The notes under the pieces are model-generated. The model saw only the letters and a program-made list of their open reading frames with translations. It had not been told where the DNA came from and did not search any database. Made by a program: the position numbers and the translations under genes. A stretch of DNA of 64,000 bases from Dermatophilaceae bacterium Sec6.4 (GTDB taxonomy: Bacteria; Actinomycetota; Actinomycetes; Actinomycetales; Dermatophilaceae), in assembly GCA_039636865.1 (NCBI GenBank), contig CP144172.1, positions 1,550,001 to 1,614,000 on the forward strand, written 5' to 3'. Every line of letters starts with the position of its first letter. The stretch's first letter is position 1. Shown piece after piece: positions 46,731 through 50,315 of this stretch.

Positions 46731-46764
46731 GGCTTGCGTGCTCGGCTCTGGCGACATACGATCC

Positions 46765-46807
46765 CTACATCTGGTAGTTACATCGTTGGTATTCGTCCAC
46801 ATATAGT
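46765..46807 (+). promoter_or_regulatory. Pair of NrdR boxes upstream of nrdRJ
   Basis: CTACATCTGGT (46765-46775) and CCACATATAGT (46797-46807) fit the core of the NrdR box, CwAtATaTwGt. Their starts are 32 bp apart, the three-turn spacing expected for NrdR. The second overlaps a -10-like TATAGT (46802-46807), so binding would block the nrdRJ promoter. Confidence 0.6.
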
Positions 46808-46824
46808 CCCCAGGGTGCGCGCGG

Positions 46825-46866
46825 TTATCCAGAGGTTGTCCCCGACTTATCCACCGGTTACCCACA
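46825..46866 (+). promoter_or_regulatory. Array of four DnaA-box-like 9-mers, 11-bp period
   Basis: TTATCCAGA (46825), TTGTCCCCG (46836), TTATCCACC (46847) and TTACCCACA (46858) are in one orientation with starts exactly 11 bp apart. Each matches 7-8 of 9 bases of TTRTCCACA. The array lies between the NrdR boxes and nrdR, in the transcribed leader or core promoter. Confidence 0.6.
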
Positions 46867-46896: not shown

Positions 46897-47412
46897 ATGC
46901 ATTGCCCCTTCTGCCGACACGATGACAGCAGGGTTGTCGACTCCCGTTCCAGCGAGGACGGCACCTGCATCAAGCGGCGTCGTCAGTGCCCGAACTGCAA
47001 CAAGCGCTTCTCCACCTTGGAGACCACGAGCCTGACCGTGGTCAAGCGTTCCGGAGCCAGCGAACCGTTCAGCCGCCAGAAGGTGCTCGTGGGCGTCCGT
47101 AAGGCCTGCCAGGGGCGCCCCGTCACCGAAGACGATCTGGCCCTGCTGTCCCAGCAGGTCGAGGAGTCGATCAGGGTGCAGGGTCTGGCCGAGATCGACG
47201 CGCACGATGTCGGCCTGGTCATCCTGGAGCCGTTGCGCGCACTCGACGAGGTCGCTTACCTGCGGTTCGCTTCCGTCTACCAGGCCTTCGATGACCTCGA
47301 TGATTTCGAGTCGGCCATCGCGCGGTTGCGCAGTGAGCGGTCAGTGGCCGCGTCCGACGAGCCCCACAGTATTGATCCAGCCCATCACGTTTCAACGGAG
47401 GAAACCGCATGA
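46897..47412 (+). CDS. nrdR: Transcriptional repressor NrdR
   Basis: A 171-residue repressor of ribonucleotide reductase genes. The zinc ribbon is [13 protein letters not shown] plus [15 protein letters not shown], and an ATP-cone follows that senses ATP and dATP. The C-terminal 20 residues are a non-conserved tail. It overlaps nrdJ by 4 bases (ATGA). NrdR-box-like sites upstream suggest it represses its own operon. Confidence 0.95.
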
Positions 47413-50315
47413 CCGAGACCACCGGCTCACGGACCGATGCCGCCCGCGCAGAGGCAGGGGTGCACATCGAGCGCATCTTCACCACGCCGGGGGTCCACCC
47501 GTACGACGAGGTCACGTGGGAGCTTCGCGATGTCGTCCAGCAGAACTGGAAGACCGGCGAGACGATCTTCGAGCAGCGTGGGGTGCTGTTTCCCGACTCC
47601 TGGTCGCTGAACGCCTCGACCATCGTGACGACCAAGTACTTCCGCGGCGCGCTCGGGACCCCGGTTCGCGAGACCAGCCTCAAGCAGCTGATCGACCGTG
47701 TGGTGCTGACCTACGTCAAGGGCGGCCGTGACCACGGTTACTTCGCCAACGATCAGGATGCGGAGATCTTCGAACACGAACTGACCTGGGCGCTGCTGCA
47801 CCAGGTGTTCAGCTTCAACTCCCCGGTGTGGTTCAACGTCGGCACCAAGAGCCCTCAGCAGGTTTCGGCCTGCTTCATCCTGTCGGTCGACGACTCGATG
47901 GACTCCATCCTGAACTGGTACAAGGAGGAGGGCTTCATCTTCAAGGGTGGCTCCGGCGCCGGCCTGAACCTGTCGCGCATCCGCTCCTCCAAGGAGCTGC
48001 TCTCCAGTGGTGGCACGGCCAGCGGCCCGGTGTCGTTCATGCGCGGCGCCGATGCATCCGCGGGCACCATCAAGTCCGGTGGGGCCACCCGCCGCGCAGC
48101 CAAGATGGTCGTGCTCGACGTGGACCACCCCGACATCGAGGAGTTCATCAACACCAAGGCGCGTGAGGAAGACAAGATCCGCGCCCTACGCGATGCCGGC
48201 TTCGATATGGACCTCGGCGGCCGCGACATCACCTCCGTGCAGTACCAGAACGCGAACAACTCGGTGCGTGTCAGCAACGAGTTCATGCAGGCGGTGCAGG
48301 ACGGCACCTCCTTCGGGCTGCGCGCCCGCTCCACCGGCGAGATCATCGAGCAGGTCGACGCGCGGGAACTGTTCGGCAAGCTGAACAACGCCGCGTGGGA
48401 ATGCGCCGACCCGGGCATCCAGTACGACGACACGATCAACGACTGGCACACCACCCCCGAAAGTGGTCGGATCACCGCGTCCAACCCCTGCTCGGAGTAC
48501 ATGTCGCTGGACAACTCCTCGTGCAACCTGGCCTCCCTGAACCTGCTGAAGTTCCTGCGCGAGGACGACACGTTCGACACGGCGAGCTTCCAGAAGGTCG
48601 TCGAGCTGGTCATCACCGCGATGGACATCTCGATCTGCTTCGCCGACTTCCCGACCGAGGCGATCGGCCAGACGACCCGCGACTTCCGCCAGCTGGGTAT
48701 CGGCTACGCCAACCTGGGCGCGTTGCTGATGGCCACCGGCCACGGGTACGAGTCCGAGGGCGGCCGCAGTATCGCCGGCGCCATCACCTCGCTGCTGACC
48801 GGCGCCGCCTACAAGCGATCCGCGGAGATGGCGGCGATCGTCGGCCCGTATGCCGGGTACGCCCGCAACTCCGATGCGCACCAGCGCGTCATGCGCAAGC
48901 ACCGCAGCGCCAACGACGAGCTGCACACCCTGGACACCATGGACGGGGAGATCCACCGGTACGCCACCAAGGCCTGGAAGGACGTCATCGACCTGGGCGC
49001 GGTCCACGGTTACCGCAATGCACAGGCCTCGGTGCTCGCGCCGACCGGCACCATCGGCTTCATGATGGACTGCGACACCACGGGCATCGAGCCGGACTTC
49101 TCGCTGGTCAAGTTCAAGAAGCTGGTCGGTGGCGGTTCGATGCAGATCGTCAACCAGACGATTCCGCGCGCCCTGACCAAGCTGGGTTACCAGAACGAGG
49201 CGATCGAGGCGATTGTTGAGCACATCGCCGACAAGGGCCACGTCGTGAACGCGCCTGGTCTGAAGCCGGAGCACTACGAGGTCTTCGACTGCGCGATGGG
49301 TGAGCGGCCGATCAGCGCGCTCGGCCACGTGCGGATGATGGCCGCGTGTCAGCCGTTCCTGTCGGGTGCGATCTCCAAGACCGTCAACCTGCCCGAGGAC
49401 GCCACCGTCGAGGACATCGCGCAAGTGCACCTGGAGGGCTGGAAGTCCGGCCTGAAGGCACTGGCCGTCTACCGCGACAACTGCAAGGTCGGTCAGCCGT
49501 TGTCCGACGGTGGTTCCACGGCGAAGAACAAGGCAGCCGCCGCAGCGCAGGCCACGACCGAAAAGATCGTGGAGTACCGCCCCATTCGCAAGCGGATGCC
49601 CAAGCGTCGCAACTCCCAGACCACGTCGTTCGCGGTCGGTGGCGCTGAGGGGTACCTGACGGCCGGCACCTACGACGACGGTCAGATGGGTGAGCTGTTC
49701 CTGAAGTTCGGCAAGCAGGGTTCCACGCTGGCCGGGATGATGGACGCGTTCTCGATCGCGGTGTCGATCGGCCTGCAGTACGGCGTGCCGCTGGAGAGCT
49801 TCGTGGAGAAGTTCACCAACCTGCGCTTCGAACCGGCCGGGCTGACCGATGACCCTGACGTGCGGATGGCGCAGTCGATCATGGACTACGTGTTCCGCCG
49901 GCTGGCTTTGGACTACACCGACTTCGAGACGCGTTCGTTCATGGGCATCCACACCGCCCAGGAACGAGCCCGCCAACTCGAGACCGGTTCGTACGCCGAG
50001 TCCACCGACACCGATTCCGATGAGGACCTCGTGGGGGAATTGGAGTCCTACTCCCAGTCCGCGGCGGAATCCTCCAAGCGGGTGGAGCCGGTCATCACGC
50101 ACGCCGACATCACCCATGGCGACATTGCCTCCGGTGCTGGTGCGGCCAACGCCCGGGTGGTCTCCAGCGAGATCCACTCCTCGGCCGAGCTGATGGAAAA
50201 GTTTCAGGGCAAGGCTGCGGACGCGCCCATGTGCATGACGTGCGGTACAAAGATGCGCCCGGCGGGTAGCTGCTACGTGTGCGAAGGCTGCGGCAGCACC
50301 TCCGGTTGTAGCTGA
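47409..50315 (+). CDS. nrdJ: Adenosylcobalamin-dependent ribonucleotide reductase (class II)
   Basis: A 968-residue class II reductase that makes deoxyribonucleotides without oxygen dependence. Key stretches are [44 protein letters not shown] with an active-site Cys, and [17 protein letters not shown]. The C-terminus has two C-x2-C pairs ([14 protein letters not shown]) used to re-reduce the active site. No cobalamin riboswitch is seen upstream. It is cotranscribed with nrdR. Confidence 0.96.

Follow-up and report, generated by a model that had tools for sequence, protein, structure and literature searches.

In a 64,000-nucleotide stretch of the Dermatophilaceae bacterium Sec6.4 genome (contig CP144172.1, positions 1,550,001 to 1,614,000; hereafter the window), the ribonucleotide reductase operon nrdR-nrdJ is preceded by a row of DnaA-box-like sites. 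This row very probably is a DnaA oligomerisation array that controls nrdRJ beside the repressor NrdR, whatever the sign of this control. The original prediction had described four DnaA-box-like 9-mers on the plus strand, starting at 46825, 46836, 46847 and 46858 in exact steps of 11 base pairs (bp), that is, with 2-bp gaps, and re-reading of the sequence confirmed this arrangement. These are sites 3 to 6 of the full row: TTATCCAGA (46825..46833, score 7.1), TTGTCCCCG (46836..46844, score 6.2), TTATCCACC (46847..46855, score 13.2) and TTACCCACA (46858..46866, score 10.7). Two additional plus-strand sites lie ahead of them, TCGTCCACA (site 1, 46793..46801, score 12.9) and, 11 bp further on, TAGTCCCCA (site 2, 46804..46812, score 9.7); site 3 follows after 21 bp, and all six sites are in phase across 74 bp. 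The four-site array stands; its start on an NrdR box, the similar rows before dnaB and its probable position downstream of the promoter were not part of the original prediction. All scores refer to a DnaA-box matrix trained on the dnaA-dnaN intergenic (oriC) regions of 42 family genomes, those in which oriC could be delimited among the 56 dnaA loci retrieved, with zero nrdR sequence included.

We compared the row with simulated and real DNA of this genome. The summed matrix score of the four sites is 37.1, and the maximum in ten simulated genomes (3.8 megabases (Mb) each, third-order Markov, both strands) was 20.9 for strict 11-bp spacing and 27.4 for 10-12 bp. In a matrix scan covering 614 kilobases (kb) of the 3.79-Mb genome, oriC included, the nrdR row was the top-scoring four-site array, followed by oriC and the region upstream of dnaA. 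Runs of at least three sites at 11/12-bp steps were found in 0 of 1753 pieces of the genome. The simpler pattern TTRTCC-5 bases-TTRTCC, with one mismatch, matched three times in the window, each time inside the array, versus 0.23 expected; three matches were also reached in one of 100 shuffles.

Absence of the 9-mers and of the 11-bp period from close relatives had been named in the original prediction as the result that would speak against it. Both are retained. An nrdR match was present in 55 of 59 family genomes (49 of 52 genera); the upstream regions of all 55, taken like the control pieces as 300 bp each, were used, and 48 of them could be anchored on NrdR box 1. Of the 55 genomes, 37 have a strict run of at least three sites with 11/12-bp steps ahead of nrdR and 47 have one of at least two, and runs also occur in the families f5, f16 and f18. 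The reverse strand of the 55 upstreams contained no run of three, and none of 677 control pieces of the same loci had a run of at least three on either strand. With other step pairs allowed, 8/9 and 9/10 bp gave 0 of 55 regions with runs of at least three, 10/11 bp gave 29, 12/13 bp gave two, and 13/14 to 16/17 bp gave none. Site pairs are spaced by 11 bp in 109 cases (control 0.1), by 12 bp in 41, by 10 bp in one and by 13 bp in none. Within the last 250 bp the plus strand carried 269 sites and the minus strand 34, with 33.6 (standard deviation 6.3) in a Markov control. A six-site template scored above 45 in 37 of 55 regions, and 17 of those show the layout 11, 21, 11, 11, 12; since the template restricted the second step to 20-22 bp, the narrow spread of that step carries no weight. 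The site 6 9-mer TTACCCACA recurs, identical, in relatives.

A tandem row that is missing from some relatives could in principle be a chance product or a functionless duplication. We give this explanation practically no credence, given the simulations and the 37 of 55 regions versus 0 of 677 controls. Moreover, an alignment of 22 arrays, selected with the matrix, shows 81% similarity in the site cores and 47% elsewhere, and thus the cores are kept and the rest is not.

The array precedes two plus-strand genes. The first, nrdR (46897..47412; Pfam PF22811, Zn_ribbon_NrdR, and PF03477, ATP-cone), encodes the repressor of ribonucleotide reductase genes that senses deoxyadenosine triphosphate and adenosine triphosphate (dATP/ATP), and the second, nrdJ (47409..50315; Pfam PF08471, PF02867, PF12637), encodes a class II, B12-dependent ribonucleotide reductase. 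NrdR boxes adjoining the array had been part of the original prediction. Indeed, a pair is present on the plus strand, with box 1 at 46762..46777 (core CTACATCTGG, 46765-46774; present in 48 of 55 family regions) and box 2 at 46794..46809 (core CCACATATAG, 46797-46806). The spacer between them is 16 bp, within the usual 15-16 bp described for NrdR boxes (PMC12051234), as is found in NrdR-controlled operons. DnaA-like sites 1 and 2 overlap box 2; the row thus begins on this box and extends about 57 bp beyond it. Two inverted repeats were noted around these elements. One, of the type TTACA-N4-TGTAA, is conserved between the two NrdR boxes (46778-46791 in the window, where its right arm is degenerate; relatives such as L090, L095 and L116) and is likewise seen in regions that have no DnaA array (L284, L285, L305). 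The other, close to GGGCAT-N4-ATGCCC, lies between array and nrdR start in the leader of the near relatives L093, L095, L096 and L099 and was not seen in the window.

The sites keep a fixed position with respect to the NrdR boxes. When no template was imposed, the 229 sites of the 48 anchored regions gathered at distances of 29, 40, 51, 61, 72, 83 and 95 bp, give or take a few bp, from the box 1 core. With box 1 as the reference point, 226 of the 229 share four neighbouring phases modulo 11; with the start codon as the reference, all eleven phases are occupied. The first site beyond +45 is spread alike from both reference points (standard deviations 36 and 38, owing to a few outliers), although 25 of 46 such sites lie exactly at +61. 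Because the phase is tied to box 1 and is scattered with respect to the start codon, we assign the row to the NrdR-box and promoter region and not to translation. The promoter itself is predicted: a putative -35-like element TTGCGT (46734..46739, plus strand) is placed 17 bp ahead of a putative -10-like element TACGAT (46757..46762, plus strand), which would set the transcription start near 46769. In 33 of the 48 anchored regions, a TTG-type hexamer, a 16-18-bp spacer and a -10-like hexamer occur in the 50 bp that precede NrdR box 1. With this predicted start the row would probably occupy about +25 to +98, i.e., lie within the transcribed leader.

A probable location inside the 5' leader raises the question of an RNA element, either a structure or a set of protein-binding repeats. 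We regard this as highly improbable, as shuffled versions of the leader fold better than the leader itself (z +1.55), there is no Rfam match up to an expectation value (E) of 1, and the same motif is used in oriC. In addition, genome G008 (L141) carries three sites, detected at a weaker threshold, in 10- and 11-bp steps at the same place and on the opposite strand, which, as a single case, fits an element acting as DNA better than one acting as RNA. A structured RNA leader or riboswitch was therefore rejected, neither an Rfam match nor a stable fold being found.

The motif and its spacing both point to DnaA. In a matrix-free 6-mer analysis, TCCACA showed a 112-fold enrichment behind NrdR box 2 and an 83-fold one in oriC, so that the 9-mers resemble the oriC box of their own lineage by matrix as well as by enrichment. 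The sites share one orientation, with gaps of 2-3 bp within the runs, and the family oriC regions themselves hold 55 site pairs at 11 bp, 88 at 12 bp, 41 at 9 bp and 25 at 13 bp. E. coli DnaA binds box pairs that are 2 or 3 bp apart, and one bp beyond 3 strongly lowers binding (PMC11317965); these permitted gaps correspond exactly to steps of 11 and 12 bp, as in the nrdR arrays. Such double boxes, including those at nrdD and purH, share the 2- or 3-bp gaps, and the spacing proved essential where it was tested, at purH (PMC11317965). However, they are pairs at other operons, while nrdRJ-type rows comprise four to six sites. At the E. coli origin, too, DnaA oligomers are guided by rows of weak sites (PMC4285127), but the nrdRJ row is found at a promoter region and lacks an exact TTRTCCACA (none in the array, and none between 1589950 and 1688656). 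The genome encodes a DnaA with domain IV (Bac_DnaA_C).

To see where else such arrays occur, a model of the nrdR array (R1) was run on the own genome, where 150 of 1449 first-look candidates were scored and 12 matches obtained. The nrdR row ranked first (E 8e-4), two matches upstream of dnaB followed (0.007 and 0.008), and oriC (0.035), the crgA-rhomboid intergenic region (0.040) and the dnaA upstream region (0.099) were also among them. Upstream of dnaB, the gene of the replicative helicase, we thus observed a second DnaA-box-like row (G000:C2:519702-519789; L230:1501-1590) with steps of 12, 11, 22, 11, 11, a layout that is recurrent in relatives (e.g., L309, L323, L329, L334). In 420-bp dnaB upstreams from 49 of 56 genomes with a match, runs of at least three sites were present in 32 and runs of at least two in 48, with no run of three on the reverse strand of the 49. 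A DnaA-box cluster was also seen between crgA and a rhomboid gene (G000:C2:452848-452872; L234:1501-1525), about 30 kb from dnaA. It is reminiscent of the mycobacterial DnaA-bound Rv0010c-Rv0011c region, Rv0011c being presumably crgA. Five DnaA-bound regions are reported for mycobacteria, namely oriC, rpmH-dnaA, the region upstream of dnaB, Rv0010c-Rv0011c and Rv3843c-RVnc0040 (PMC7738170), and the first four of them have counterparts among the R1 matches. The class I nrd region of the own genome (9 kb, with one NrdR-like core by plus-strand pattern) contained no run. Apart from DnaA-like sites, a dispersed motif GTTATCCACATCCCCC was noticed in the own genome at five places (L147:9226, L148:9384, L149:12058, L150:10168, L152:10949), with a second motif TTATCCACA 29-49 bp away; DUF222 genes stand beside two of the five.

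These data bear on the question whether another protein, or NrdR itself via extra half-sites, occupies the array. Two of the sites do coincide with NrdR box 2. Nevertheless, we consider such a binder very unlikely: the sites are directional and NrdR boxes palindromic, the matrix was derived from oriC, similar arrays stand before dnaB, and NrdR-box regions exist that have no array, as in Streptomycetaceae nrdR, in family f14 and in the class I nrd region of the own genome. An explanation by NrdR only was rejected because arrays precede dnaB and other NrdR-box regions are without them. Conservation in relatives, the oriC-like motif, the spacing known for E. coli DnaA and the further genome matches at oriC, dnaA, dnaB and crgA argue, at the level of sequence, for a DnaA array as originally proposed.

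A sequence-only model of NrdR box 2 and array (R2, built from 22 sequences) was then applied to 297 genomes of the order. Some match at E of at most 0.01 was returned for 199 of them, many of these weak. The 26 best matches among those listed were all located at nrdR; 20 came from genomes outside the model training and five from the families f5, f16 and f18. Four of 30 R2 loci (L265-L268) had no NrdR, NrdJ, DnaA, DnaN or LexA within 1.5 kb. In other families a match was present in 266 genomes; 45 of these were hand-picked in favour of families with R2 matches, and the following counts are thus no random sample: runs of at least three sites precede nrdR in 2 of 2 genomes of f5, 6 of 12 of f16 and 2 of 2 of f18, and in 0 of 29 from the remaining 13 families. 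In f14 the NrdR box core was found in three of four regions and a run in none of the four. Among 80 named nrdR loci, which partly overlap the family genomes and were grouped by hand, runs were present in 13 of 18 loci of Dermatophilaceae type and in two of three unplaced metagenome bins, and absent from Streptomycetaceae (0/20), Microbacteriaceae (0/12), Cellulomonadaceae/Promicromonosporaceae/Demequina (0/18) and others (0/9). Five of the 20 Streptomycetaceae regions had an NrdR-box core by pattern. A contig titled as a Spirochaetaceae metagenome bin (L048) carries an actinobacterial-type nrdR with a five-site run and is probably mis-binned.

DnaA-box clusters outside oriC are known from E. 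coli to store or recharge DnaA. The nrdRJ array might likewise serve mainly for titration or recharging, in the manner of datA or DARS, which are among the DnaA-bound regions of E. coli (PMC11317965), and have little effect on nrdRJ. We find this unlikely: phase and position of the array are fixed relative to the NrdR boxes, the association with nrdR holds in four families, and the locus is 1.1 Mb away from dnaA on the same contig of the own genome.

Several observations weigh against a DnaA array that controls nrdRJ. Sites 3 and 4 score low with the oriC matrix, and the nrdR arrays favour TTACCCA (339-fold, versus 11-fold in oriC) and TCCCCA (54 versus 14), so that their motif is not identical to that of oriC; we read this shift as a possible preference for weak sites. 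A strict run of three is missing from 18 of the 55 family genomes, and a run of two from eight. The nrdR upstream of Dermacoccus (L033) is without an array, and the array is therefore not essential. The losses in some genera are real. They were compared with the occurrence of a class I enzyme, and this idea was dropped: PF00268 is found in 23 of 59 family genomes and in three of the six array-less ones (G009, G013, G014, G041, G057, G058), and no pattern emerged. Four of the 12 R1 matches had no gene assignment, including one that scored better than oriC (C2:796856, E 0.011), and taken singly the matches at oriC, crgA and dnaA have weak E-values. No nrd region is named among the five DnaA-bound regions of mycobacteria in the report cited above (PMC7738170), which does not mention nrd at all and to which nrdRJ would be an addition here. 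Finally, a stricter consensus promoter scan of the window found no promoter, and the placement of the array downstream of the transcription start is uncertain for this reason.

How might a DnaA array act at this place? DnaA monomers would bind adjacent 9-mers head to tail, with 2-3-bp gaps and on one face of the helix. Most sites being weak, they would be filled only cooperatively as DnaA-ATP rises, as at oriC, and the filled array would act on the NrdR-controlled promoter. Given that the row begins on box 2 and that the transcription start probably precedes it, we rather expect that a full array lowers nrdRJ transcription at high DnaA-ATP, either as a road-block or by exclusion at box 2. Independently, NrdR, which binds with dATP plus ATP (PMC9110341), would repress at high dATP. 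The output of nrdRJ would then read the state of the initiator together with the deoxynucleoside triphosphate (dNTP) pool. DnaA binding, the role of the ATP form, the promoter position and the sign of control are all steps that we infer, and the sign is the weakest step of this explanation.

The same array could instead activate nrdRJ, either from a second promoter located between the array and the nrdR start codon or by driving NrdR off box 2, a view that overlaps with DnaA control as set out above and differs in sign. In E. coli, low DnaA-ATP or DnaA-ADP activates nrdAB (PMC8203912). DnaA also seems to favour dnaB expression in mycobacteria (PMC7738170), and P. acnes nrdRJ has two promoters (PMC3848588); because of these latter two cases we keep activation as a serious possibility, albeit the less probable sign. 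However, the 30 bp from the last site to the nrdR start codon contain no promoter-like match, and the phase of the array follows NrdR box 1 rather than the start codon.

There is also a more far-reaching and tentative model, which we think possible but would not bet on. NrdR box 2 would be dual-coded, its halves forming the first two DnaA positions, so that a DnaA-ATP filament and a dATP/ATP-loaded NrdR tetramer would be mutually exclusive and nrdRJ would be a two-input switch. It would belong to a conserved initiation regulon of oriC, dnaA, dnaB and nrdRJ that shares one geometry, runs at 11-12 bp interrupted where a single site is left out, across several actinobacterial families.

Among the closest known systems is E. 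coli nrdAB, where DnaA boxes are present in the control region and the DnaA-ATP level sets expression, high DnaA-ATP lowering it (PMC8203912), and which is also under NrdR control (PMC12176259). Both operons combine DnaA boxes with NrdR control of a ribonucleotide reductase, for nrdRJ as judged from sequence. In contrast, nrdAB encodes a class Ia enzyme and has three boxes, one of them DnaA-ATP specific, whereas nrdRJ encodes a class II enzyme and has six in-phase sites, in a row that shares sequence with NrdR box 2 and is probably located past the start. Streptomyces coelicolor shares the NrdR boxes before nrdR-nrdJ (PMC9110341), but the 20 Streptomycetaceae loci, all without a DnaA run, did not include this species.

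DnaA control of a ribonucleotide reductase operon, with nrdAB and the DnaA-bound nrdD as E. coli examples, is thus already known, and so are rows of weak sites at oriC. A comparative study of NrdR boxes reportedly appeared in 2005. As far as the open-access literature shows, the row before class II nrdRJ, its overlap with an NrdR box, its conservation in four families and the dnaB rows in this group appear to be new; prior mention in subscription papers is possible. For species that lack Hda, the way in which dNTP synthesis and replication initiation are coordinated has been posed as an open question (PMC11853086). The row described here is a concrete cis-element, conserved across four families of an actinobacterial order, through which the initiator would be coupled directly to the ribonucleotide reductase operon, within a predicted regulon of nrdRJ, dnaB, dnaA, oriC and the crgA-side site. 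The nrdRJ promoter also offers a place to study the spacing rules of DnaA away from oriC. If DnaA controls nrdRJ, the supply of dNTPs in these bacteria may be wired directly to the start of replication.
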